From: Acidimicrobiaceae bacterium
Lineage (GTDB): Bacteria; Actinomycetota; Acidimicrobiia; Acidimicrobiales; Aldehydirespiratoraceae
Reading direction: 5' to 3'
Assembly: GCA_028819505.1 (NCBI GenBank)
Contig: JAPPLH010000069.1
Location: forward strand, 1-34,232
DNA: 34,232 nucleotides
This document shows, piece by piece, positions 3,367 through 17,231 of this stretch. The notes beneath the pieces are model-generated. The model saw only the letters and a list, made by a program, of their open reading frames with translations, ran no database searches and was not told the origin of the DNA. The first letter of the stretch is position 1. Each line of letters opens with the position of its first letter. Made by a program: the position numbers and the translations under genes.

Positions 3367-4233
3367 CTACAGCGACAGGCCTCCGCCGCCGCGCCATGGG
3401 TCGTGTCGGGACTGCTGTTGTTGGATGTGTTGTTGTAGCAGGCGGTGCAGCTCTCCTGGTGGCAGGCTGTTGGCCCAGGTGTCGCGTAGTTCGGTGATGT
3501 GGCGGTCGACTCTGTTGAAGGTTTCGTCGAAGTCGGCTTGTGGGGGGAACTGGCCTTGTTGTTGGAGTTGGTGCCAGGCTGTGGCGATGTGGTCGCGGCG
3601 TCCGAGGTAGGTGCTGCGTATGTCGGCGGGGTGGTTGCGGCGGCCGTACTCGCGGGCGGAATCGTTGTAGCTGGCGGCATACAGGTTCCATGCCGCAGGG
3701 AGGTCGACTTGTGGTGATTGGGCGAGCTGGTCGAGGTCATAGATGTCTCGTGGCGCGCTTCTGCGGGCGAGACAGCGCAGCTTGTCGGCTGCGACCGCGG
3801 TGGCGGTGTAGCCCCGGATCGGCGCGGTGTCGGCGGTTGTGCCCCAGCGAGGGTTGATGGGCCAGCGCTGGGTGGGCACCGAGTCGTCGCGTTCAGCTAG
3901 CACGGTGGCCTCAGCACGTATCGGCCCCGGCATCTCAGGGGCAACGATGTTGATGTTCACCGCGCCGGCGTCCTCGGTTGTGAGTGTGGGTATGCCGAGG
4001 CTGGACGCGGCCTTTGCTACGGCGCCATCAACGAGCGCCCGGAACCCTTTGGGTGAGCCGGCCCAGTCGAAATCGAGGTCCTCAGACCAGCGGTAGTTGC
4101 TGAACACGCACACCCGCAGAAGGGTCCCGCCTTTGAACACCAAACGGTCATCGCCGATCCCAGCAAGCGCGGCGACGACATGATGCTGGATCATGTCGCG
4201 CTGTGTGTGCGCGTCGAAGTCCTGGACGGTCAT
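3367..4233 (-). CDS. AbiEii-like toxin (nucleotidyltransferase, DUF1814)
   Basis: The protein is 288 aa from the ATG at 4233, starting MTVQDFDAHTQRD. It belongs to the AbiEii / DUF1814 nucleotidyltransferase family, the toxin part of AbiE systems. Members are NTP transferases that can arrest growth during phage infection. The family motifs are visible: VFKGGTLLR (about residues 32-40), then RWSEDLDFD (about 48-56), with the metal-binding aspartates in DLDFD, and later KLRCLARRSAPRDIYDL with the conserved Lys and RD.yDL. The longer open frame to 4440 overlaps the upstream gene and is not needed. The start lies 7 bp after the stop of the partner gene at 4241, as expected for an antitoxin-toxin operon. 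The C-terminal tail is Gln- and Gly-rich (HIQQQQSRH, GGGG). Confidence 0.85.
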   Translation of the reverse strand: MTVQDFDAHTQRDMIQHHVVAALAGIGDDRLVFKGGTLLRVCVFSNYRWSEDLDFDWAGSPKGFRALVDGAVAKAASSLGIPTLTTEDAGAVNINIVAPEMPGPIRAEATVLAERDDSVPTQRWPINPRWGTTADTAPIRGYTATAVAADKLRCLARRSAPRDIYDLDQLAQSPQVDLPAAWNLYAASYNDSAREYGRRNHPADIRSTYLGRRDHIATAWHQLQQQGQFPPQADFDETFNRVDRHITELRDTWANSLPPGELHRLLQQHIQQQQSRHDPWRGGGGLSL

Positions 4234-4240
4234 AGCACGC

Positions 4241-4996
4241 TCAATACAGCAGGTGCTCAGCGAGCTCAGCCGGTGTGGTGTGCCACCACACCCGCCGGCG
4301 GCGGTCCAGCATGACTGCGGTGTGCTGTGGCACGTTGGGGTCAAGGCCCAGCCACCGCTCTCCAGAGGCGGCCCTCTCGCACAGCGCGGCGTAGGCGCAA
4401 TCAACTGCCACCACCGAGCGGGCGTGCTGCGGGATCGCATTGTTGCTGTCTGCCGCGACGGCTGTGAGGGCGTCGGCCACCGACGCGATGCGGCGCAGCC
4501 CAGCCGCGAACCTCAAGTCGGCGGCAACGGTGGACAGCTCTTCGGGGTCGAACAGCCGCGGCGTCTTCGACAGCGCCTGCGCGATGATCTCATCGACGCC
4601 ACAGACCCAGCGGGCGTGCTGGGCGCACTCCAACAGCGCCCGCACCGGCGTCGACATCCACGTGTCGTCCCCAGCGCCGGTTGCGGCCACTAGCAGCGTG
4701 GCTGGGCTCTCAGCCACGTGACGCCACCCCAAGCGGCGGGCCCGGCCATGGAGCGCACCCGGCGCGCTCACAGTCACCCCCGCCATGAGTGCCACGCCAC
4801 CCAAAGACAGCGCGCTGCGATGCGACAGCCGCCTCGGCGCACGCCCATACACCTCGACCAGCCGCCGACGAAGCGACTCAGACAGCCCCCAGGCATCCGC
4901 CAGCGCCCAAGTGTCCGCCGCCACCGACGCGCCCACTGGGGTGCCTCGCGAGGCGTCGGCGAGCCTCGAACCCGAATGAAGCTTCACATCGGTCAT
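4241..4996 (-). CDS. AbiEi-like antitoxin / transcriptional regulator
   Basis: The protein is 251 aa from the ATG at 4996, preceded by a strong purine run (AAAGGGGGG) 4 bases upstream; the upstream ATG at 5035 lacks such a site. It lies immediately before the AbiEii toxin gene with a 7-bp gap. AbiEi proteins pair a DNA-binding N-terminal part with a C-terminal domain that counters the toxin and represses the operon. The centre shows the TPVRALLECAQHAR segment, similar to the S.eRALle motif of the AbiEi family. The N-terminal winged helix is not clear by eye. The assignment rests on the pairing with the toxin plus this motif. It may bind an inverted repeat in its own promoter, which I could not identify. 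Confidence 0.65.
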   Translation of the reverse strand: MTDVKLHSGSRLADASRGTPVGASVAADTWALADAWGLSESLRRRLVEVYGRAPRRLSHRSALSLGGVALMAGVTVSAPGALHGRARRLGWRHVAESPATLLVAATGAGDDTWMSTPVRALLECAQHARWVCGVDEIIAQALSKTPRLFDPEELSTVAADLRFAAGLRRIASVADALTAVAADSNNAIPQHARSVVAVDCAYAALCERAASGERWLGLDPNVPQHTAVMLDRRRRVWWHTTPAELAEHLLY

Positions 4997-5184
4997 CACA
5001 CCCCCCTTTCTGGCGCCACGAATCGCTGCGTTCACCCTACCGATGCCAACCCCACACGGCCCCCAGCAGCCATCCAGCCAACACCGACAACGCCGCTCTG
5101 TTGCGTCTGACCTCGCGCGACAGGATCCACCGAGAATCAGTCCGCATGTGGTGAGGTCTTTGGGCCTGAGCAGAAGGAGTGCTC
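4997..5184. promoter_or_regulatory. Divergent region between abiEi-like gene and IS remnant
   Basis: It holds the ribosome binding site of the AbiEi-like gene (purine run at 5001-5009 on the minus strand) and the leader of the IS3-like orfA. It presumably contains the AbiE promoter/operator and the left end of the insertion sequence. No terminal inverted repeat could be fixed by eye because the right end of the element is missing. Confidence 0.4.
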
Positions 5185-5517
5185 ATGTCCGATTCGATCG
5201 ATCCGACGCGCCGCGCCAAGCGGTTCTTGTCGGCGGAGCAGAAGTACGAGATCTGGTTGAAGATCCTCTGTGGGGAGCTGACCACCAACGAGGCCGCGGC
5301 GCACGCTGGTGTGGATCGCTCGACGGTTCTGAAGCTGCGCAAGGTGGCCAAAGACGGCGCCATCGCGGCGTTGCAGGCGTCGAGGCCGGGCCGGCGCAAC
5401 GGCGTCGCCGATGGCGAGCTGGTGCAGCTGCGCGCCGAGAACGCCCGGCTGTCGGCGACGGTCGTCGAGCAGGCGGTCGAGCTGGCGGCGTTGCGGGGAA
5501 AAGCGCCCTGGGGTTGA
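5185..5517 (+). CDS. IS3-family-like transposase OrfA
   Basis: The protein is 110 aa from the ATG at 5185, with AAGGAG five bases upstream. The order is typical of IS3-family OrfA: a helix-turn-helix (TTNEAAAHAGVDRSTVLKLR, about residues 34-53) followed by a heptad-containing helix (LVQLRAENARLSATVVEQAV) that acts as a leucine zipper-like dimerisation region. In this family OrfA binds the element ends and is fused to the OrfB integrase by a -1 frameshift. OrfA looks intact, but OrfB next to it is cut short, so the element is not expected to transpose by itself. It lies between the AbiE pair and the Hma-like operon. Confidence 0.75.
   Translation: MSDSIDPTRRAKRFLSAEQKYEIWLKILCGELTTNEAAAHAGVDRSTVLKLRKVAKDGAIAALQASRPGRRNGVADGELVQLRAENARLSATVVEQAVELAALRGKAPWG
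5499..5503 (+). promoter_or_regulatory. Candidate -1 frameshift site between orfA and orfB
   Basis: A run of GGGG followed by AAAAG lies near the end of OrfA. Moving one base back here joins OrfA to the frame that encodes the start of OrfB (reading on as SALGLSGP). A-rich slip sites of the AAAAG type are used in IS3-family elements. No downstream structure was checked. Confidence 0.4.
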
Positions 5518-5708
5518 GCGGCCCGGTCCCGCGTCGAGTCACCGGCGAGGTGAAGGACGAGCTGTTGGGCATCGTGGCTGAGTGTGTGGCTTCGGGGTGG
5601 ACGACGCAGCGGGCCTGCTCGGTGCTTCAGGTGGACCGGCGCCGCGTCTGGCGCTGGCAGCGTCGCCGCACCGCCGGCGCAGGCGCAGGCCTCGATGACC
5701 GCTCCTGA
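5503..5708 (+). pseudogene. IS3-like OrfB, truncated
   Basis: In the -1 frame relative to OrfA the sequence reads VTGEVKDELLGIVAECVASG followed by WTTQRACSVLQVDRRRVWRW, the N-terminal helix-turn-helix of an IS3-type OrfB. It continues to LDDRS and stops at 5706-5708. The DDE integrase core, normally about 250 further residues, is absent. The break lies about 50 bp from the 3' end of the DUF499 gene, so a deletion or recombination has joined the IS to the defence operon. Confidence 0.65.
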
Positions 5709-5757
5709 TGCGCCGCGGGGATCGCACGAACGATGAGTGCCCGTTGTTGCTGGTCGG

Positions 5758-8682
5758 CTAGAGGTCGGTGACCGTGGCGTGCATTCCTGACGTCTTGGCC
5801 TTTGTGTCTACATCCTCGGCCGCGTCGGGCGACATGGTGGCCTGCACCGATATCTGCATCCATGTGAGTGCGCCGTCTTCGACGCTGTTGCGGAGTGCGT
5901 CGAGCATGACGCGTACTGCGTCGCGGTTGTCGTCTCCAACGGCGAGGGTGGCGGACACCGCAACCTTCTTCTCCGTTGCTGTGGATGGACCGCCGCCTCC
6001 CCCGCCTGGCGTTGATGTGCCGCCGGGGTCGTCTTCGGGCTCGGTTGGCTCCTCAGCGACGGTGCGTTGGAGTCGCTGCGCGTCAGCCCCCAGATTGATC
6101 TGCGAGGCGCTGTGTGCCTCTCGGGGGTTCCCGTCGCTGTCGACGATGATCAGGTCGCCGGTGACGATTGCGTCCCAGATGGCGTTGCGGAGGTCTTGGT
6201 CGCCGTTCGGCAGCAGCGGCAGCCGCGGGAGCTGCCAGAAATGGTTGCGCAGTTCAGGGAGCGGTTTGCCGTAGTCGCGGTCTTGGAGGTTGTGGAGCAG
6301 CGCCGTGGCGCCGAACTGGCCGACGCCCAAGGCCTTGTCGTGCGCCTCCAGCACCTTCCATACATGTGATCCGTCGAGCGCCGTCTCGAGGTCGCCTTCG
6401 AATCGGTGATCGTCCCAGGCTCTCTGCCCGCCGCCGATGTCGGCGAGCCATACCACATGCTGGTAGGCGGCTCGGACCTGCTTGGTGAAGTTCTTGGCGG
6501 CTCGATCGAGTTCCTCGGCGGCCTGCGACGCGAGGTCAGGGTCGTTCTTGACAGCCTCTCTTGATGAGACGCGGGCGGCCGCGAGGTATTCGCCGGCCGC
6601 GATGATGGCGTTGCGGCGACGCTGGGTGTTGACGACAGAGAACACCGCGGAGGACGCCCAGTTGACGGCGAGTTTGTGGTTGCCGAGTCCCATCGCGGCT
6701 CTTATCGCGTCGCGTGTGGCGCTGTCGACGCCGTTGAGCAGCGTGAACACGCGGGGGTCGAGAACCACGAGCCGGTTCTTGCGGGCATCGTCTATCGACG
6801 CGGCCGAGATGGTCGTGAGCGGTGAGGCGTCATCCTCAGGCCGCTCGACGAACAGCGCCACGGTGAAGGGGCCGGTGGTGATCAGTTCCTCGCTGCGCCG
6901 ACACAGCTCGTCCTCTCGTTCCTGGTCGGAGATTGCGTTCCTGGCGTCTCGCAGGAACATGCCGAATGTCCTCTTGGTCGATAGGTACAGGCGAGGCGGC
7001 TGGCCGCCCTTGCCGGGGATCAGCTCGAGTGAGGCGAGGCCGCGCTGGGAGTCCTTGAGCGCTTCGAGTGCCACCTCGGCGTCGCCGTGCCCGTAGGAGA
7101 GGTCGGCTATGTGGCTGGCGGCGAGCACCTCCGGCACGGAGCCGCCCTGTCCGCCTTGGGGCCGGTCGCTGATCGAGTACAGCAGGGCTGCGGTGGCGGC
7201 CCGCTCAGCGGCGCGCGGATTGACGGCTCTGGAGGGGTCGCGGTCCGCGGCGAGGTCGATGGCGCGGGCGTTGCCGCTGGCGTCGTCTTCGTCGACGATG
7301 TCGGTGGCGATGACCTGCCGGTAGTTCTGGGTCGTTGTGGCGTCGATGATGAGGCCGGAGTCGAGCAGCGCTTCGCGCACGTCGGCGTCGGACAGCACGA
7401 CATCGCCGGGTCCGATGAGAAGCGGTGCCCAGTCCGCGTCGCCGAGCCGATCGGGGCTGTTCTGGGCGTCTTCGACGGAGAGCCCGGCTGCTTCGGCGAG
7501 GCGACGCAGGTGGGCGTACACGGTCGAGGCGAACACGCGGATGGTAGATCGGACGCGCTGGAAGCCGGCCACCTGTGACCATTCCTGCTCAGCGAGGTGC
7601 ATGAGCGCCGGATGGAACGGATAGCTGCGCTCCACCTGCGCGGCGTAATCGTCGGCATCGAACCACTTGAGCCGGCTGAAGACCTCCTTGTTCCAGCGGT
7701 GGTCTTGCATCGCCGCAGTGAAGGCTTCTGTTGTGGCCGCGATCGTTGCGGGTTGCGCCGTGGTTCGGAACAGGCGCCTTCGGATGATGTTGGCGAAGTC
7801 GTTGGGCGAGGTGACGGCATCGGTGGTGACCTCGCCTCGGGCAGCCTCAGCTTCGAGTTCCTCGCGGCACTGCTGGCCGAACGGTGACAGCGCGATGGGG
7901 TCCTTGTCGGAGTCGATCATCACCATGACTGCGACGCAGTGCGGGACTTCGTTGGTGTGGCGCATCATGTCTACGAGGAACGAGTGGTCGTTGACGGCGC
8001 GTTCTACCGGTCCAGCAGCGGTGGAGTTGCGGACGTAGTGCATCACCTCGTCAAAGAGCACCAGCACGGGCCGCCCCACGCTTCGAAGTACGTCGGTGTA
8101 GCTGATGTTGTCCTTCTTGGCGGCGACCCATTTGTCGTGGTCGCCTTGGTAGAGCCGGAACAGGAACCGCTCCCGCAGAGTCTCAGACCCGCCGAACACC
8201 TCCGGGTCGGTTCCCTCGGGGTCCATCTGGTCGCCGGGCAAAGCCACCACGACCGGGGCGCCGAGGCCGGAGGCGACTGTGCCGCTTCCGACCAGCTTGT
8301 CGGCCTCGTCCATGATGCGGGCTCCGATGTCGGTGCCAGCGAAACCAGCCGGGTCCGTCGCCATGTGCCAGAGAGCGACGAGGGCGTGCGACTTGCCGCC
8401 GCCCATACCTTGATCGAACCGCCACACAGGTCTCGCGGAGGCGGCCTGCCCGCCGCTGCCGCCGAGGCGCACGGCGATGTCGGCGGCGATACGGAGCAGG
8501 CTCGGCGACGGGTGGGTGATCTCACCGAAATAGTCAACTGAGCGATACAGCGGGTAGTTGCCGGCCGACCCGTATGCGACTCCTCGCAGGCTCATCTGGA
8601 TGTCGCTCACCGTTCCCGAGGCCTCCACGAGCTCATCCCGGAGCCGGAGTTCGTCCCACCACGGTGTCGGCTGCGTCGTCAT
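5758..8682 (-). CDS. DUF499 ATPase of Hma-like defence operon
   Basis: The protein is 974 aa, a large AAA-type ATPase of the DUF499 family. Walker A is GMGGGKSH at residues 92-99. Walker B is LVLFDEV at about 207-213, followed by MHYVRN. The C terminus has a Gly/Pro/Glu linker (about residues 880-905) before a short final domain. DUF499 proteins accompany DUF1156 methylases and SNF2-type helicases in defence islands. The ATG at 8682 overlaps the methylase stop (ATGA), so translation is coupled and it is the last gene of the operon. Its role in the system is not established; NTP-driven assembly or translocation on DNA is an inference. Only a truncated IS lies downstream. Confidence 0.85.
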   Translation of the reverse strand: MTTQPTPWWDELRLRDELVEASGTVSDIQMSLRGVAYGSAGNYPLYRSVDYFGEITHPSPSLLRIAADIAVRLGGSGGQAASARPVWRFDQGMGGGKSHALVALWHMATDPAGFAGTDIGARIMDEADKLVGSGTVASGLGAPVVVALPGDQMDPEGTDPEVFGGSETLRERFLFRLYQGDHDKWVAAKKDNISYTDVLRSVGRPVLVLFDEVMHYVRNSTAAGPVERAVNDHSFLVDMMRHTNEVPHCVAVMVMIDSDKDPIALSPFGQQCREELEAEAARGEVTTDAVTSPNDFANIIRRRLFRTTAQPATIAATTEAFTAAMQDHRWNKEVFSRLKWFDADDYAAQVERSYPFHPALMHLAEQEWSQVAGFQRVRSTIRVFASTVYAHLRRLAEAAGLSVEDAQNSPDRLGDADWAPLLIGPGDVVLSDADVREALLDSGLIIDATTTQNYRQVIATDIVDEDDASGNARAIDLAADRDPSRAVNPRAAERAATAALLYSISDRPQGGQGGSVPEVLAASHIADLSYGHGDAEVALEALKDSQRGLASLELIPGKGGQPPRLYLSTKRTFGMFLRDARNAISDQEREDELCRRSEELITTGPFTVALFVERPEDDASPLTTISAASIDDARKNRLVVLDPRVFTLLNGVDSATRDAIRAAMGLGNHKLAVNWASSAVFSVVNTQRRRNAIIAAGEYLAAARVSSREAVKNDPDLASQAAEELDRAAKNFTKQVRAAYQHVVWLADIGGGQRAWDDHRFEGDLETALDGSHVWKVLEAHDKALGVGQFGATALLHNLQDRDYGKPLPELRNHFWQLPRLPLLPNGDQDLRNAIWDAIVTGDLIIVDSDGNPREAHSASQINLGADAQRLQRTVAEEPTEPEDDPGGTSTPGGGGGGPSTATEKKVAVSATLAVGDDNRDAVRVMLDALRNSVEDGALTWMQISVQATMSPDAAEDVDTKAKTSGMHATVTDL

Positions 8683-11471
8683 GGTTGTGCTCCCTGATCG
8701 AAGATCGACGGCTGATATCCTGCCTCATCTGCGCGGCGTTGCTCGGCCGCTCTGACCGCTTCGACATTGGCTGCGGCGCTGGATACGGCTTTGCGGCTGC
8801 GTGTCAGCCATGTGAACACTTCGCCGTCGGTGTCGGCTTCGGCGAGATGACGGCCCAGCTCGGCGACCGCGGACCAGAGGTACTCGTCGTCGGCCCGTCC
8901 CGACACGTCCAGCACCTCTGCGGCCTCAGCGACGCTCTTTCCGGCTCGGGCGAGCGCGAACGCCACGTCGATGATGGATGTGTCGCGGTCGACCACTGTC
9001 TCGGCCTCTGCTCCAAAGGCGAGACGGACGCCTTTGCTGACTCTGGTGGTGATGCCGTCAAGATCGAGCTCGGTGCCGGCCAGCGCCTGCGCGGTGAGCC
9101 GCTGCCAGCGCTCCTGGGCGGCGTCGGAGACGTCGCGGCGGTGCTGGCGGACCCACGACAGCGCGAAACGCGTTCTCGCGTCGAAGGTCCCCAACGGCAA
9201 ATCGTCGATACGGATGTCGGCCGCGTCCTCGACAGCCTGGCGGGCGATCAGCAAGAACTTCTCGGGGTCCTCAGGCTTAGCCTTGCTGTTGAGGATCTTG
9301 CGCCACCGGCCGACTATCTCCATCGCTGGCCCGTATGCAGCCATCTGCTGGTCCGGTAGAGCCAAACCGGCCTGCTCCCACAGCGGGATCCGTCGAGCGA
9401 CCTCCTTGCAGACGGCTGCGGCGACTTCGTTGCTTCGCCCGTCGGGACGGTGTGCTGGCGCGGCGCGGCATGCGAGAGTCATGGTGGTGACGATGTTCGC
9501 AGAGCCAGCCCCGCCGCCCGTTTCTGTAAGGGCGGGCCATGTGCCTGTGAGCACGAGGCCTGCGTCGCTGATTATCGCCAGAAGGCCGCGCCACACCTCG
9601 GGGTCGTTGTGGCCGAACACGATGGTTACGACACCATCATTGGTAGTCACCCGGCGGGCCTCAGCCAGAGCCGCCGTCAGCATCTCGTCGTAGTGAGCGC
9701 GGTCTCTATGGTCACCGACAGAGGTCCCGCCACGCTTGACGATGATCTCCTCAGCCTTCTCTTGAACTCCCGCTGGATGAGCTGTAATGGCGAACGCTGG
9801 ATGCGTCGAATGAAGAGCACGCTTAAGCCAGACGTAGAACAAATCCGAGGCGTCGGTGTAATCGATCATCGCGTTGTATGGCGGATCAGTCACAACCGCA
9901 TCGATCGACTCAGACCTCAAGGGCACTGCCAGGGCGGAACCCCGTTCAACGCGTGCGGCGACGCCGTCCGGGCGTTCTAGCTGCTTGCGTAGCGAGGCGG
10001 GCAAGTCTTTCGCAACTGATCTCCATGTCCCCGGGCCGTCGCCGCATCCTGTTTCGAAGTAGTCGTAGGAAAAGGAGATGCTCGCCTCATTGAACAAATG
10101 GTCTACTTGTACGCGATTCGATGTCTTGTGACGATGTGCCCGAAGTGTGGCGCCGCGCGTTGAGCAACGTATTCTCCGAACAAAGACCGCGGCCGCGTAG
10201 CCCGTCAAGGCTGATGCGTACTCGGGTGACAAGTCCGCTCCCGTGATCTCGCTCCCGATTGAAGCGATGGCACGTCCGAGTCGAACGAGACCCAGTGTCT
10301 GCCTGTCGTTACACAGAGTTCCATATGTTCGATAGCCGTACTTCGAGGGGCGCACGGTGTCGTTGTTCCCGAGCGGAATCGGCTCTGAGGGCACCGCTGG
10401 CAGACTTGGAGCAAAATCCGATTCTCCGACGAGGGCCTTGCTTGCCTTGGCTACACCGCGATGCTCGTCCGCCGTAGGGGTACGGAATACCTTGCCAACG
10501 TCTTCGTCGAGATCGGCGACTACGAGCAGCCGATCCTCAGCGAGTCCTTCGTTCATGAGCCTGGTGTGCACCTCTAACGGGTGGACATGCTGACAGTTCG
10601 GATACGGGCAAACGGCCGACTTGCCGCGTCGGCCAGAAGCCGTCACAAGCGTCGGCTTGGAGTTTGGCGGGCCGTCATGAACAATCACCGCGAACGTCCC
10701 ATCCTCCGGCTGGGCGGTGATGCGGTAGGACTGTCCCGGGTCGTTCTTCTTCGGTAGTGGATGACGTAGAACGAGGGATCCTGAGATAGGAAACCGGTTG
10801 CCGCATTCCTGGCATGGAAGCGTGACAGCCCACAGGTACCCCCATGGCCGCTTGCCGTCGACCTCGGGGTAGAAGTCGTGCATCGCTGCCTCGTAACGGT
10901 CGCCTACGACATCAAGCACCGTCTCGACATCGCGGAGCAGCCGTTGGGAGCCAAGGATTTCAAGGTCGAGCCGGTCGTGGTCGAAGTCAGCTACACCGAA
11001 TGGTAGGGGAGGCTCATTGTCCCACTGTCGCAGCGGGTAGTCGGCTAGGAGCCTGCCGGCAAGACTCGCGACCGGCGAGTAGTCGATGCCAGTTGCGCCT
11101 ACAGCAAGTCGGGCGGCTTCTAGGGGGATCATCGCCCGGCCGGAGAACGGGTCGAGCATGGCGGCGCCGTCGGGGTAGTGCTTGTTCAGCTCGGTGACGA
11201 GAGCGTCGTGGGCTGCGTCTCGACCGTCGGGGTCGCCCGGGTCGGGGAACGCGGAGCGGACGAGCTCTTGGAGGCGGAGCTGTTCCTGGGGGTCTTCAGG
11301 CCAGGGGAGCAGGCTGGTGACCACCGCTGCCTTTGCTTGGGCGAGGGGCCGTTTGGCGAACCAGGTGAACAGGTTGGCTTCGCTGTTGCCGGAGCCCCAG
11401 CCGCTCGCGGAGTTGGCGGACACCTCTTCGCATGGGAACCAGCGCTCGATCATGCGCGGCCTGGTGGTCAT
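8679..11471 (-). CDS. DUF1156 DNA methyltransferase of Hma-like operon
   Basis: The protein is 930 aa from the ATG at 11471, which overlaps the helicase stop by ATGA; the longer frame upstream runs inside the helicase gene and is discarded. The N terminus (MIERWFPCEEVSANSA) is typical of DUF1156. The SAM-binding motif is LDPFSGRAMIPLEAARLG-like at residues 106-124, and the catalytic motif DPPYNAM is at 529-535, as in N6-adenine or N4-cytosine methylases. Two CxxC-like pairs (CQEC near 220, CPYPNC near 288-293) suggest a zinc ribbon inserted between the motifs. By analogy with DISARM and BREX, it should mark host DNA so the helicase part can tell self from phage. The recognition sequence cannot be read from the gene. 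The long C-terminal part (about residues 700-930) is helical and of unknown function. Confidence 0.88.
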   Translation of the reverse strand: MTTRPRMIERWFPCEEVSANSASGWGSGNSEANLFTWFAKRPLAQAKAAVVTSLLPWPEDPQEQLRLQELVRSAFPDPGDPDGRDAAHDALVTELNKHYPDGAAMLDPFSGRAMIPLEAARLAVGATGIDYSPVASLAGRLLADYPLRQWDNEPPLPFGVADFDHDRLDLEILGSQRLLRDVETVLDVVGDRYEAAMHDFYPEVDGKRPWGYLWAVTLPCQECGNRFPISGSLVLRHPLPKKNDPGQSYRITAQPEDGTFAVIVHDGPPNSKPTLVTASGRRGKSAVCPYPNCQHVHPLEVHTRLMNEGLAEDRLLVVADLDEDVGKVFRTPTADEHRGVAKASKALVGESDFAPSLPAVPSEPIPLGNNDTVRPSKYGYRTYGTLCNDRQTLGLVRLGRAIASIGSEITGADLSPEYASALTGYAAAVFVRRIRCSTRGATLRAHRHKTSNRVQVDHLFNEASISFSYDYFETGCGDGPGTWRSVAKDLPASLRKQLERPDGVAARVERGSALAVPLRSESIDAVVTDPPYNAMIDYTDASDLFYVWLKRALHSTHPAFAITAHPAGVQEKAEEIIVKRGGTSVGDHRDRAHYDEMLTAALAEARRVTTNDGVVTIVFGHNDPEVWRGLLAIISDAGLVLTGTWPALTETGGGAGSANIVTTMTLACRAAPAHRPDGRSNEVAAAVCKEVARRIPLWEQAGLALPDQQMAAYGPAMEIVGRWRKILNSKAKPEDPEKFLLIARQAVEDAADIRIDDLPLGTFDARTRFALSWVRQHRRDVSDAAQERWQRLTAQALAGTELDLDGITTRVSKGVRLAFGAEAETVVDRDTSIIDVAFALARAGKSVAEAAEVLDVSGRADDEYLWSAVAELGRHLAEADTDGEVFTWLTRSRKAVSSAAANVEAVRAAEQRRADEAGYQPSIFDQGAQP

Positions 11472-14400
11472 GTTGAGCTCTCTTGGGCGGCAGTGAGGTC
11501 GGATCCCTTGATGCGCAGGACGGGAACGTCTCTGGCGGTGCCGGCGAAGACAGCGGCCGGGTCGGGCCAGGCGTCGAAGAGCTTGCCGGTGCCGTCGGCG
11601 CAGTGGTCTATGACATAGAGCCAGTAGTCCGAGCCGTGGATGCCTGCTGTCGCCAGTTCGGCGCCGGTGACCTCGATGCCCGATGACGCCGCGGAGCCCT
11701 TGATGCCTTTGACCTCCACGGCCCGGAACCTGGAGCCTTTGGTTGCTTTGAGGTCGTAGCCCAGCTTCTCGGTGTGGACGTCGGCCACCGCCCATCCCTG
11801 GCTGTTCAGCAGCGATGTGACGTGGCGCATGGCGACGATCTCAGAGTCGGCGTCCTCGCCGGCGACGTCGGGGGCGGCGGTTGCGGTGACATGCGCCCAG
11901 CCGACCAGCTCGACGGCGCCCGTCTCGAAATCGACCGACGCCTCCAGTTCCTGTACCCGTTCGCCGATGGCTTGGGCGACGCGTTTGCGGGCTGCGGTGC
12001 GGTTCTGGGCGTTGTCGATGTCGTCGGTGAGGTCGTTGGGGAGTTTCTGGAGTTGGACACGGGCGTGGTCCAGCCAGGCTGCGAGTTCGCCTCGCCGCTG
12101 TGTTTCATCGTTGCCGGCGGCGTGTCGGGCTTGGGCTTCGGCGTTGGTCAGCTCCGCGGGATGCGGAGCCCGAGGACACGGCGACTCTGGAGCTTCGAGG
12201 TTGGCGAGGGTCTCCCAAGGAACGACTCGGGTACCTGCGGCGTCCACCTTGATCAGATACGACCACCGGGTGTGGTGACGCCACGCATGAGGCTGTGTGA
12301 GCGTTCGCCCTTGGCGCACCGACACTGTGAAGCAGTAGAGCCGGTAGTCGGTGATCGAGGTCGGGTCGTGCAGCGCGCCGCCCTGGTGCAACTCGGGATG
12401 CAGATGCCGGGCGGCCGCGGCCACGACGTCTCGGAAGGCCTTGTCGTTGGGTCCGAGCGGCACGGCTCGTTCCGCCGCTATCGCTCCTTGTCGGACGGCT
12501 GCTCGTTTGGCGCTGCCACTGGTGGCTATCAGCGTTGCGCTCGTCGTGCCGATGGGCAGGGGCTCTAGGGCAGCGGGCCTGATGTGCCACAGGCCGTCGT
12601 CGGCCACAGTGGAGCGGGCCAGGTAGATCAGTCCGGCGTGGTCGAGGCGGGCCAGGTACCGCTCGACGATGTGGGGGTTGATCTTGTCGAGGCGCTGCTG
12701 GTTGATCCCGGTGATGGCGCGGCCGACGTCGACAGGCGCTGCGAGGGCTTGGTCGTCTCGGTTGATGCTGTCGTGGATCTGGCGGATGCGTTCCTTGGTG
12801 ATGGCCCGAACCGCCGACGTGACCGCCGTCTGGTCCGCGCCGGGCTGGTAGAGCGTCGAGAGGAAGTCCTCGAGCCCGTTGACGCCCGCCGTCTCCGACA
12901 GCAGCCGCTCCCCCACCAGAGCCAGGCTGTCGAACATCTTGCCGTCGAGTTCGTTGGCGGCCGCCACGAGATTGTTGAGCAGCGTCGCGTGGGCGTCGCC
13001 TTCGCGGGTCTCCACAGCTATGAGGTTGTAGAGGTCCACATCCCTGGCCTGTCCCACTCGGTGGATGCGGCCGAGTCGCTGCTCCAAGGTCACCAGCGAC
13101 CACGGCACGTCCCAGTTCACCAGCACCCGCGACGACTGCAGGTCGATTCCTTCGTTGCCGGCGTCGGTGGAGACGATCACCTGGAACTCGCCGGCGATGA
13201 AGCGGGCCCGGATCTCTTCTCGTTCGGGATGTGTCTGCCTGCCCGAGTACATCTCGGTCTTGTAGCCGGCGTCTCGGAACCGCCGGGCTAGCCAGTCCGC
13301 GGTGTCGGCGTATTCGGTGAACACGACGAGCTGCTCGTCGCCTCCAGGCGTGACGCCGTTGGGTGACAGCGCCTCGTCTTGGAGTCGCGGCCACTTCGAG
13401 ATAGGAGCCTGCGGCTTGGCCAGTTCGAGGTCGATCAGGGCTACGAGCTCGGTGATGTCTCGTCGTTCGGCGCGGGAGGAGCCTGATACGAGGTGTGCGA
13501 TCTCGATCAGCTCGCGTTCGTCGGCGTCTTCCTCGGTGATGCCCTGTGTCTCATCGGGATGCACCGGTGTGCCCATGTTGACCGTTCGGCGCTGCAGCGT
13601 CTCGCGCAGCGCGTGCAGCGACGACGCGGCGCGCTTGCCGTACACCATTCGGCCCAGCCCCACGGCGCTTGTGGGGAAGTAGGTGTCGACGAGGTGCAGC
13701 GCCTGGTCGTAGATGACCTTCTCCTGCAGGCTGAGCGGAACCGAGATGTTGTGAGCCGTGCGCTTCTTGAACAGTGGCGTCTTGCCGTCGATGTTGACGA
13801 GCCCCTCCTTCATGCGCCGCAGGAAGTGCACCGACCCCGGACGCAGCCGCCTCAGGAGTCCGTCATCCTGGGGCTGGGCGGGCAGAGGGAACACCTTCGG
13901 GTCGGTGAGATGCATCAGCGACCTGAACAGCCACTCCGACCCGCGGTGCGGTGTCGCCGTCATCAGAAGCGCCCTCGGTGCCTTGGCCACGGTTGTGAGC
14001 CCCACCTGAAACAGCGTCGACGCCGTGGGGGTCAGCCGGTGCGCCTCATCTGCGATGACCAGGTCCCATGCCGCAGCGTCGGGATCGATCGCCTCCCGAA
14101 CCTGCGGATTGACCGACGCGAGGTGCAACGACACGATCCACAGCGGATGCCGGCTCGTCTCAAGGGCGTGCTCACGGATCGTGTCGGCGGTGATTCGCCG
14201 CAGCTCGCGCCCGAAGAACCGGGAGAAGTCCTCCTGCCATTTGCCGACCAGATGGGCTGGGCACACGATGAGCGCCCGGTTCACGATCCCGAGCCGGCTG
14301 GCTTCGGTGAGGTACAGGCCGGCCATGATCGTCTTGCCGGTGCCGGGCTCGTCAGCAAGTAGGAAGCGCAGCATCGGCTGCGGGAGCATGGCCCCATAGA

Positions 14401-14713
14401 CCGCAGCGTGCTGATGCAGATAGGGCTCCAACGGCGCCGACCCCAACGCAGTCCCCGAGACGCTCTCTGCGGCTTGGGACATCCACTGGCTCCATAACGC
14501 GGCCAGCGTCCGGTTGGGGTCCGCAGCGCCGTCAGCCACCAACTCAACCACGTCGCTCAGTTGTGCCGCGGTTAGCTCGACCCGACGGGGCGGCTTGTCG
14601 CCGTCGAGCACATACAGGTTGACTCCGCCGTCGCCGCTCGGCTGTCTCATGTCGACTGTGACGAAGGTGTCCTCGCCCGGCAGGCGGACTTGGTCACCCG
14701 GCTTGAGGCTCAT
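11468..14713 (-). CDS. SNF2-like helicase with DUF3883 domain (DrmD/Hma helicase type)
   Basis: The protein is 1081 aa from the ATG at 14713. The open frame continues to 14881, but the extra N terminus (SRLQLLPIGEVLWPHH...) is unlike the family. Helicase motifs are in order: DEPGTGKT at 121-128, DEAH at 222-225, TATPHRGS, then in the second RecA domain STDAGNEGIDLQ and EQRLGRIHRVGQ. This order is that of SNF2-type translocases of DISARM class 1 (DrmD) and related systems. The last about 110 residues form a DUF3883-like domain with GYDLKAT and RAVEVKGIKG. The D-(x)n-ExK arrangement resembles a PD-(D/E)xK nuclease fold, but nuclease activity is inferred. First gene of the operon; its promoter must lie in 14714-15300. 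Confidence 0.88.
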   Translation of the reverse strand: MSLKPGDQVRLPGEDTFVTVDMRQPSGDGGVNLYVLDGDKPPRRVELTAAQLSDVVELVADGAADPNRTLAALWSQWMSQAAESVSGTALGSAPLEPYLHQHAAVYGAMLPQPMLRFLLADEPGTGKTIMAGLYLTEASRLGIVNRALIVCPAHLVGKWQEDFSRFFGRELRRITADTIREHALETSRHPLWIVSLHLASVNPQVREAIDPDAAAWDLVIADEAHRLTPTASTLFQVGLTTVAKAPRALLMTATPHRGSEWLFRSLMHLTDPKVFPLPAQPQDDGLLRRLRPGSVHFLRRMKEGLVNIDGKTPLFKKRTAHNISVPLSLQEKVIYDQALHLVDTYFPTSAVGLGRMVYGKRAASSLHALRETLQRRTVNMGTPVHPDETQGITEEDADERELIEIAHLVSGSSRAERRDITELVALIDLELAKPQAPISKWPRLQDEALSPNGVTPGGDEQLVVFTEYADTADWLARRFRDAGYKTEMYSGRQTHPEREEIRARFIAGEFQVIVSTDAGNEGIDLQSSRVLVNWDVPWSLVTLEQRLGRIHRVGQARDVDLYNLIAVETREGDAHATLLNNLVAAANELDGKMFDSLALVGERLLSETAGVNGLEDFLSTLYQPGADQTAVTSAVRAITKERIRQIHDSINRDDQALAAPVDVGRAITGINQQRLDKINPHIVERYLARLDHAGLIYLARSTVADDGLWHIRPAALEPLPIGTTSATLIATSGSAKRAAVRQGAIAAERAVPLGPNDKAFRDVVAAAARHLHPELHQGGALHDPTSITDYRLYCFTVSVRQGRTLTQPHAWRHHTRWSYLIKVDAAGTRVVPWETLANLEAPESPCPRAPHPAELTNAEAQARHAAGNDETQRRGELAAWLDHARVQLQKLPNDLTDDIDNAQNRTAARKRVAQAIGERVQELEASVDFETGAVELVGWAHVTATAAPDVAGEDADSEIVAMRHVTSLLNSQGWAVADVHTEKLGYDLKATKGSRFRAVEVKGIKGSAASSGIEVTGAELATAGIHGSDYWLYVIDHCADGTGKLFDAWPDPAAVFAGTARDVPVLRIKGSDLTAAQESST

Positions 14714-15329
14714 CCGCTTCACTACCTTGCCGTCACCGGCGCGAAAGCGCCACGGCGAGCCCGAGTTGTTGCAGTGATGGGGCCACAGGACTTCTCCAAT
14801 GGGTAGGAGTTGTAGGCGAGACACAGTACATGCACCGCTCCGAGCAGCCCGAACAGCGACCGATGGTGTTGGCCGACCCAAGCGCAGACACGCGACAGGT
14901 CCACGGGCACACCGGCGACCAGACCCGCTGGCGCTTAGCGGCGAACGGGTGTTCGTGCTTACGCGGTTTCGGGATCTACAGCGGCGTCACCAATGCCCGT
15001 ACCCCGCAGGCAGCCGCCCGGCACAGGAGCGTGCCGCGGTCCCCGCACCGCGAGGCGCACACCGATGGAACCATCCCAGCCGCTAACCACTGCCGGCAGC
15101 GGCCCGGCGTGGGGGGCCGCAGATGACGGTGGGCGCAACTGGTGGAGTCGCTGCGCTGCGAAGTGCGGGGCCTTCACAGGTCCGGGGTGTGGGTGACCGG
15201 TGAGATCTCCGGCATCGCCCGCCCCAGCAGCGGCAATATGTTGTTGCTCGGGGTCAACCTGGGGGACAAGCCTAGCAGTCTAGTTACAAATAATGGCCTT
15301 TGACCTGGTATTATATCCGAATAGATCGG
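14714..15329. other. Intergenic right end of the island
   Basis: This 616-bp stretch separates the helicase gene from tRNA-Asn. No intact gene is recognised; the small open frames here have no family resemblance except the possible exonuclease VII fragment at 15127-15303. The last about 60 bases before the tRNA are AT-rich (TAGTTACAAATAATGG, TATTATATCCG). Two opposite transcription units end or start here, so the helicase-operon promoter is expected inside, but no convincing -35/-10 pair was fixed. Confidence 0.5.
15127..15303 (+). pseudogene. Possible fragment of exonuclease VII large subunit (XseA OB-fold)
   Basis: This 58-codon frame follows a stop at 15124-15126 and ends at TGA 15301-15303. 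It contains GVWVTGEISGIARPSSGN. That closely resembles the nucleic-acid-binding OB-fold segment of XseA (general pattern VWV.GEIS...RPSSGH.YF). After that point the resemblance ends (MLLLGVNLGDKPSS), so it would be a short broken fragment carried at the island end. It has no good start codon. The alternative is chance similarity. Confidence 0.3.
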
Positions 15330-15343: not shown

Positions 15344-15402
15344 CTCGAACCCACAACCTAGCGGTTAACAGCCGCTTGCTCTGCCAGTTGAGCTACCCCG
15401 GA
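15330..15402 (-). tRNA. tRNA-Asn(GTT)
   Basis: The gene is 73 nt. The acceptor stem TCCGGGG/CCCCGGA, positions T8 A9, the D arm starting GCTC, the anticodon arm GCGGC-TGTTAAC-... with anticodon GTT, and the T arm GTGGG-TTCGAGT-CCCAC all fit. The discriminator base is G and CCA is not encoded. The first 10 bases overlap the end of dnaG (TAG at 15393-15395 is formed by tRNA positions 8-10). Its 3' end serves as the integration site of the defence island. Confidence 0.95.
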
Positions 15403-17231
15403 TCAGCCCGTGAGGCTACCAGCGACCCCGACACGGACCCCTCGGATCGGCGTCCGTGCTCGACCAGCCACGGCAGCAGGCTCGCCAGCGCGTCGTCGCG
15501 TGTGTTCCGCTCGTCGAGCCGCTCGGACTGCGACTTCAGCCAGGCCACGCTGGTGCTGCACTGCTGGCGCATGGCGGGATCGTCGGCGGAGGCAGCCAGG
15601 CGGCGCAGGCTGTTCATGGCGCGGCCGGAGGTGAGCCGGGCCACACGGGCGAGCACGTCCTCCACGGACGCGTTGCCCGCGTCCACCGCCAGCCGGTGCA
15701 GCAGATGTGCCGCCGGCTCCGACACCAGATCGCACGCCTCCACCACGCTGCCGGTGTGATCGAGGGCCTCGTAGGCGTCGCGGTGCACCGGATCGCCGAA
15801 CAGCGTGGCGTGCAGGCGGCCGGCCACCTCGCCGGTCCGGTGAATGGCCAGCTGCAGCGCCTCGTCCTCGGGGGTCAGGCGCTCGCCGGCCGTGGGCCGG
15901 AACCCGTCGCCGTCCGCGGTGCGAGCGGGCGCCATGCTTGGCCCGCCGGCCGCGAAGCGGCGCAGATGGTCGGGATCCACATGGCAGCGGTCCGCGATCT
16001 CGATCACGTGGGGGTCGCGCACCATCGGGTCGGGATGCTCGTTGGCCACGGTCACGGCCCGCTCGGCGGACCGGGCCCGGCTCTCGATGGTGGACAGGTC
16101 GGCACCGGCCAGGGCCCGGTCCACCCTGAACTGCAGGAACGGGATCGATCCTTCGATGGCGCGATGGAGAGCCTCCGGCTGGGAGCGGCCCAGATCGCCG
16201 GGATCCTGGCCGGGGGGCAGGTCGGCGACCAGAACCTCCAACTCGAACTGGCGCTCCCAGGCATAGACCCGTCCTGCGGCGGCCGCGCCCGCGGCGTCGG
16301 TGTCGAAGGCCAGCACCAGCCGGTCGGCCGAGAACCGCTTCAGCAGTCGCACATGCTCCTCGGTGAGGGCCGTTCCGCAGGTGGCCACCGCCAGCTCGAT
16401 GCCGGCCTCGGCGCATCCGATCACGTCGGTGTAGCCCTCGCACACCACCGCCCGGCCCGCCTTGACGATCTCCTTGCGGTGCTCGTGCAGCCCGTAGAGG
16501 ACCCTGCTCTTGTTGTAGGTCTTGGCCTCGGTCGAGGTGTTCAGGTACTTGGGGCCCTCGGCGCCGGGAAGCACCCGGCCGCCGAAGCCGACGACCTCCC
16601 CCCGCTCGTCGTTGATCGGGAACAGGACCCGGCCCCGAAAGAAGTCGTACTGGCGGCCATGGTCGTTGAGACGTCCGAGGCCCGAGTCGCGCAGTTCGTC
16701 ATCAGGAAGGCGCAGGTGCTGTACCAGAGCCTCCCCGTGGGCGGGCGCCCACCCCAGACTCCAGCGCCGCACCAGTTCGCCGTCGTAGCCACGCGACCTC
16801 AGGTAGTGCCGGGCCGGGCCGCCGTCGCGGCCGTCGAGCAGGCGCTGGTGGTAGAAGTCCCTGGCCCTCTCCACCGCTTCCAGCAGCCTCCGCCGGCGGT
16901 TCTGTGCCGCGTTCTCGTCCAGGCTGGTGTACTGCACCCGTATCCCGGCCCGCCCGGCCAGCATCTCGACCGCGCCCGCGAAGTCGAGGCCCTCGATCTC
17001 TCGCACGAAGGTGATCACGTCGCCGCTGCGCTGGCAGCCGAAGCAGTAGTACACGCCCTTGTCGGGCGCCACCGACAGCGACGGCGTGCGCTCGCCGTGA
17101 AGCGGGCAGCGGGCCATCCACTGCCGCCCCGACCGCTTGATCTCGGTGTGCTCGCCGATGATCGCGACGATGTCGGTGGCCGCCCGAACCCGAGCGATGT
17201 CGTCCGGCACGATCCCCATCGGGGCGAACAT
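15393..17231 (-). CDS. dnaG: DNA primase DnaG
   Basis: The protein is 612 aa and is the bacterial replicative primase that makes RNA primers for Okazaki fragments together with DnaB helicase. The N-terminal zinc-binding CHC2 domain is complete: C42-P-L-H45 and C63-F-G-C66. The Toprim catalytic core follows, with VVCEGYTDVIG (metal-binding Glu) and AFDTDAAG. The C-terminal part (about residues 430-600) would contact DnaB and is more variable. The ATG at 17231 lies 43 bp after glyS; an ATG four codons downstream is an alternative. The last residues DPG and the stop codon lie within the 5' end of tRNA-Asn on the same strand, which is unusual. Confidence 0.95.
   Translation of the reverse strand: MFAPMGIVPDDIARVRAATDIVAIIGEHTEIKRSGRQWMARCPLHGERTPSLSVAPDKGVYYCFGCQRSGDVITFVREIEGLDFAGAVEMLAGRAGIRVQYTSLDENAAQNRRRRLLEAVERARDFYHQRLLDGRDGGPARHYLRSRGYDGELVRRWSLGWAPAHGEALVQHLRLPDDELRDSGLGRLNDHGRQYDFFRGRVLFPINDERGEVVGFGGRVLPGAEGPKYLNTSTEAKTYNKSRVLYGLHEHRKEIVKAGRAVVCEGYTDVIGCAEAGIELAVATCGTALTEEHVRLLKRFSADRLVLAFDTDAAGAAAAGRVYAWERQFELEVLVADLPPGQDPGDLGRSQPEALHRAIEGSIPFLQFRVDRALAGADLSTIESRARSAERAVTVANEHPDPMVRDPHVIEIADRCHVDPDHLRRFAAGGPSMAPARTADGDGFRPTAGERLTPEDEALQLAIHRTGEVAGRLHATLFGDPVHRDAYEALDHTGSVVEACDLVSEPAAHLLHRLAVDAGNASVEDVLARVARLTSGRAMNSLRRLAASADDPAMRQQCSTSVAWLKSQSERLDERNTRDDALASLLPWLVEHGRRSEGSVSGSLVASRADPG

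Follow-up and report, generated by a model that had tools for sequence, protein, structure and literature searches.

How does a protein-coding gene come to end inside a tRNA gene, and does such an overlap tie the expression of the two genes together? The question is raised by a 34,232-nucleotide stretch of DNA from an Acidimicrobiaceae bacterium (referred to here as the window), in which dnaG, the gene for DNA primase (612 amino acids), runs from position 17231 to 15393 on the minus strand. Its identity is given by the open frame and by the Pfam domains found in the translation: a zinc ribbon (Zn_ribbon_DnaG), DNAG_N, Toprim, and DnaB_bind. On the same strand, ARAGORN places tRNA-Asn(GTT) at 15402 to 15328, and Rfam model RF00005 matches 15402 to 15330 with a score of 69.6 bits, above the Rfam cut-off. 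The minus-strand end of dnaG reads CTG GTA GCC TCA CGG GCT GA/T CCG GGG TAG, where the slash marks the 5' end of the tRNA. Within the overlap (15393 to 15402, minus strand), tRNA positions 1 to 10 double as the last base of GAT, the codons CCG and GGG, and the stop codon TAG (15395 to 15393), which corresponds to U8-A9-G10 of tRNA-Asn(GUU). The original prediction that the dnaG stop consists of positions 8 to 10 of a tRNA-Asn on the same strand is confirmed: an in-frame TAG supplied by the tRNA ends the gene, and ARAGORN, the open frame, and the minus-strand sequence agree to the exact coordinate. The source genome is a 167-contig assembly that is 94% complete, and it contains one near-full-length match to the tRNA-Asn sequence.

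TAG at positions 8 to 10 is very common in the tRNA genes of this organism, being found in 22 of the 31 that were checked; any gene that enters such a tRNA in the matching frame therefore stops there. For three further tRNA genes of the genome, an open frame of more than 100 codons also reaches the TAG at positions 8 to 10. Judged by their translations, these three frames look like spurious, off-frame ORFs, and we do not regard them as real genes. By the same reading of translations, dnaG is the only credible gene that ends at a TAG in tRNA positions 8 to 10 among the 31.

A check on relatives shows that the overlap is widely shared within the genus. Among the 15 species with a readable locus, 12 have the dnaG stop at the identical tRNA position. 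In the other three, dnaG stops upstream of tRNA-Asn, at -46 (G010), -26 (G015), and -3 (G001), and no other change is visible at the locus. The closest named relatives are metagenome genomes of Acidimicrobiaceae/Acidimicrobiia, which we take to be sponge associated from the isolate names and general knowledge. A sequencing or assembly error could have deleted a genuine dnaG stop upstream of tRNA-Asn, and an assembly of unverified bases in 167 contigs invites this suspicion, but the assemblies of 12 species share the stop position and have alignable ends; we consider an error excluded for practical purposes, with a negligible residual probability.

Since the overlap has been lost in G010, G015, and G001, it is dispensable. 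Outside the genus, dnaG lies directly before tRNA-Asn without overlapping it in four other lineages. In G023 and in G046 to G048, which belong to the same family, the dnaG stop is about 40 nucleotides or more upstream of tRNA-Asn; in 11 small-genome relatives of ∼1 Mb (group g42, loci L142 to L152), it is always at -26, as it also is in G145. The overlap is thus missing from some of the lineages in which the two genes adjoin, namely, the three species of the genus and these four lineages, and adjacency does not require overlap. We therefore reject conservation of the overlap as a sign of coupling. In the g42 loci, a well conserved CTAGTATTATTAATTTGCTA-like stretch precedes tRNA-Asn.

The gene order around the locus suggests how dnaG and tRNA-Asn became neighbors. 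In 94 of the 99 genomes of the class in which both genes were found on one contig, tRNA-Asn follows dnaG at a distance of no more than 6 kb, with both genes on one strand. In other genera of the family, a gene mostly lies between the two, and dnaG is usually at least 1 kb from the tRNA. We read this intervening gene in four loci, all from the same family, and in each it encodes an RpoD-type sigma factor; the class-wide order thus appears to be dnaG, RpoD-type sigma gene, tRNA-Asn. The dnaG-linked type of sigma factor has no match in any of the 16 genomes of the genus (G000 to G015), each of which has a single, more distant sigma match with 47 to 51% identity. On a phylogenetic tree, the dnaG-linked and second-type sigma factors are separated with full support, and the four copies from the genus that were placed all group with the second type. 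We also observed, with reference to sigma loci L126 to L132, that the dnaG-linked factor is missing from G046 to G048 and from G023 and that the second RpoD-type factor, which evolves slowly, is the only one that the genus and G046 to G048 retain. One of two RpoD-type sigma factors appears to have been lost repeatedly within a single family.

The original prediction had proposed a search for an internal tRNA promoter in the 3' region of dnaG, and this search turned up, at the level of sequence, a conserved extended -10 element. The candidate promoter, TGGTAGCCT, occupies 15421 to 15413 of the minus strand (-19 to -11 relative to the tRNA) and lies within dnaG codons. Each of the 15 species of the genus carries TGnTAnnnT directly upstream of tRNA-Asn, with the hexamer at -16 to -11 (-17 in G001), and the motif is retained in G010, G015, and G001, in which dnaG ends upstream and the element lies outside the gene. 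Among 27 tRNA-Asn loci from other genera of the family, TAnnnT starting at -22 to -11 is present in 25, with TGn in front of it in 17. Within the window's own genome, TAnnnT occurs at the corresponding distance in 21 of the 31 distinct tRNA genes examined (out of 45 matches), compared with 0 to 4 when the searched interval was slid upstream, and the tRNA-Val(CAC) gene is preceded, equally far upstream, by an exact copy of TGGTAGCCT. A fixed short distance from the tRNA and conservation independent of the upstream gene are what a dedicated sigma70-type tRNA promoter would be expected to display, and we infer that TGGTAGCCT is the active promoter of tRNA-Asn.

This assignment fits what has been reported for other actinobacteria. 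In C. glutamicum, about 97% of start sites have TAnnnT in front of them, separated by a spacer of 3 to 11 nucleotides; promoters of the extended -10 type are frequent, and -35 boxes are weak (PMC3890552). In P. acnes, most tRNA genes are individually transcribed (PMC3848588). Given the position of the -10 element and the C. glutamicum spacer (PMC3890552), the transcription start and a short tRNA leader would fall within 15403 to 15412 of the minus strand. The tRNA-proximal part of this leader (-6 to -1) likewise varies little across the genus, for which our only explanation is that it forms the start region.

The -10 element appears to force rare codons on dnaG. Among the 12 species with the overlap, the codon at the valine position that contributes the TA of the -10 box reads GTA in 11 and ATA in one; in the rest of the dnaG genes of these species, GTA makes up just 11 of the 526 valine codons (2%). 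TCA (11/388) and GCT (52/953) are likewise rare in the rest of dnaG and common in the tail. Selection on the protein tail is an unlikely source of this pattern: the last ∼20 codons are not conserved outside the genus and have no clear counterpart in most other genera, matches to which usually end near residues 593 to 599; G010 and G015 have a shorter tail; and its codons track the DNA letters. Because these 20 or so residues are not conserved outside the genus, the overlap is probably cheap and can persist passively.

Downstream of the tRNA, positions 3367 to 14881 of the window hold an apparent inserted defense-type island on the minus strand, with genes for an SNF2 helicase with a NOV_C domain, a DUF1156/N6-N4 methylase, a DUF499 ATPase, and an AbiEii-type nucleotidyltransferase. 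Several congeners have a tRNA-Met gene closely after tRNA-Asn in place of the island. In 6 of the 15 species, tRNA-Asn is followed within 50 nucleotides by an AT-rich sequence that fits the pattern (TATAAT..)C..GTTCAGA.GC.ATTT.TG (15270 to 15327 in the window; also L009, L010, L014, L015, and L017), and the sequence beyond it differs; the stretch is possibly the end of an element family that inserts at tRNA-Asn. Species of the genus (L006 to L020) differ in whether the tRNA-Asn gene includes the CCA end (GCCA); in the window, it does not.

Does the overlap make primase synthesis depend on tRNA processing? With the dnaG stop inside the tRNA, there is no room for a terminator between the two, and a read-through dnaG transcript cut by RNase P would therefore lose its stop. 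The original prediction was right about the stop and inexact in speaking of three codons, as the cut would take away CCG, GGG, and, from GAT, the third base only. The genome encodes a tmRNA, which could rescue ribosomes on such a stop-less dnaG mRNA. The geometry, the retention of the overlap in most of the genus, and the presence of tmRNA would all permit a functional coupling in which the dnaG transcript is the main source of tRNA-Asn and removal of the dnaG stop by RNase P lowers primase through nonstop decay. However, the conserved promoter element directly before tRNA-Asn speaks against this, as do the three species that keep the element and drop the overlap and the four other lineages in which the genes adjoin without overlapping. 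The sequence comparisons indicate that tRNA-Asn is unlikely to lack a promoter of its own and to rely on the dnaG transcript for expression. The original prediction had itself listed a tRNA promoter that gives only separate transcripts as an argument against it; as far as sequence goes, a tRNA promoter is largely in evidence. We consider functional coupling very improbable, and the proposal that primase synthesis is coupled to tRNA processing finds no support at this locus. A variant in which dnaG read-through acts as a switch in this genus seems equally far-fetched: ribosomes terminating at U8-A9-G10 would block folding of the tRNA, and RNase P would act on idle transcripts and generate nonstop dnaG mRNA. 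If it were true, primase supply would track translation activity together with tRNA-Asn processing.

A weaker effect is somewhat easier to imagine. Even with its own promoter driving tRNA-Asn, RNase P cleavage of dnaG read-through transcripts may yield some nonstop mRNA and lower dnaG output, a cost that would be tolerated and not selected. Eight tRNAs are co-transcribed with protein genes in C. glutamicum (PMC3890552), which makes some dnaG read-through plausible, and dnaG cannot have its own terminator before tRNA-Asn; on the other hand, the overlap was lost in three species with no visible alteration of the locus. We regard such a side effect as unlikely, albeit less so than coupling. The original suggestion that nonstop mRNA is produced thus holds as far as the geometry goes, which allows the stop to be lost if a read-through transcript is cut by RNase P, and we found no evidence that the cell makes use of it.

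Taken together, our results make it highly probable that dnaG and tRNA-Asn are two separate transcription units that were pushed together after the loss of a sigma gene and that their overlap is passive, not regulatory. This explanation builds on features that can be read directly from the genomes (the overlap and the species that share it, the conserved promoter-like motif, the biased codon use, the shared gene order, and the loss of the sigma gene). In the ancestor of the genus, the dnaG-linked sigma gene would have been deleted, and the dnaG frame would then have extended across the tRNA-Asn promoter and into the start of the tRNA; that the sigma deletion was the event that brought dnaG against the tRNA promoter is likely. 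Translation of dnaG would then stop at the first in-frame stop codon, the TAG at U8-A9-G10 that most tRNA genes supply. tRNA-Asn would be transcribed from the extended -10 promoter within the last dnaG codons, and RNase P would remove the leader, which is a few nucleotides long; dnaG read-through transcripts are presumably minor or harmless. With a tail that is unconserved outside the genus, the overlap would cost little and be retained passively; that 12 of 15 species still have it agrees with such retention and does not prove neutrality.

The mechanism is ordinary, and the locus is a tidy case of genome rearrangement. It provides an example of a coincidental overlap of two essential genes that arises by loss of the gene between them and persists with a tRNA promoter inside the coding end and a stop codon of the kind present in most tRNA genes. 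The locus is also a case of a promoter that seems to impose rare codons on a protein gene, and it cautions that such overlaps should not be taken as regulation without comparative data. In the titles and abstracts that our searches of the open-access literature brought up, we found neither a dnaG/tRNA-Asn overlap nor a bacterial gene that stops inside a tRNA.

The nearest parallels lie in other systems. Protein/tRNA overlaps occur in mitochondria, where transcripts are processed by tRNA punctuation; as at the dnaG locus, the end of an mRNA and the 5' end of a tRNA share bases, and one cut hits both products. Mitochondrial tRNAs, however, come from a shared polycistronic transcript, whereas tRNA-Asn at this locus has a conserved, separate promoter element. 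The eight co-transcribed tRNAs of C. glutamicum (PMC3890552) resemble our case in that, in an actinobacterium, a protein gene immediately precedes a tRNA that has the same orientation; unlike in those pairs, the stop here falls inside the tRNA, a promoter element dedicated to the tRNA is conserved, and co-transcription is at most plausible. The candidate promoter matches the extended -10 promoters (TGnTAnnnT) of individually transcribed actinobacterial tRNAs in motif, spacing, and the weakness of the -35 box (PMC3890552, PMC3848588) and differs from them in that it is known from sequence and lies within the coding end of dnaG.
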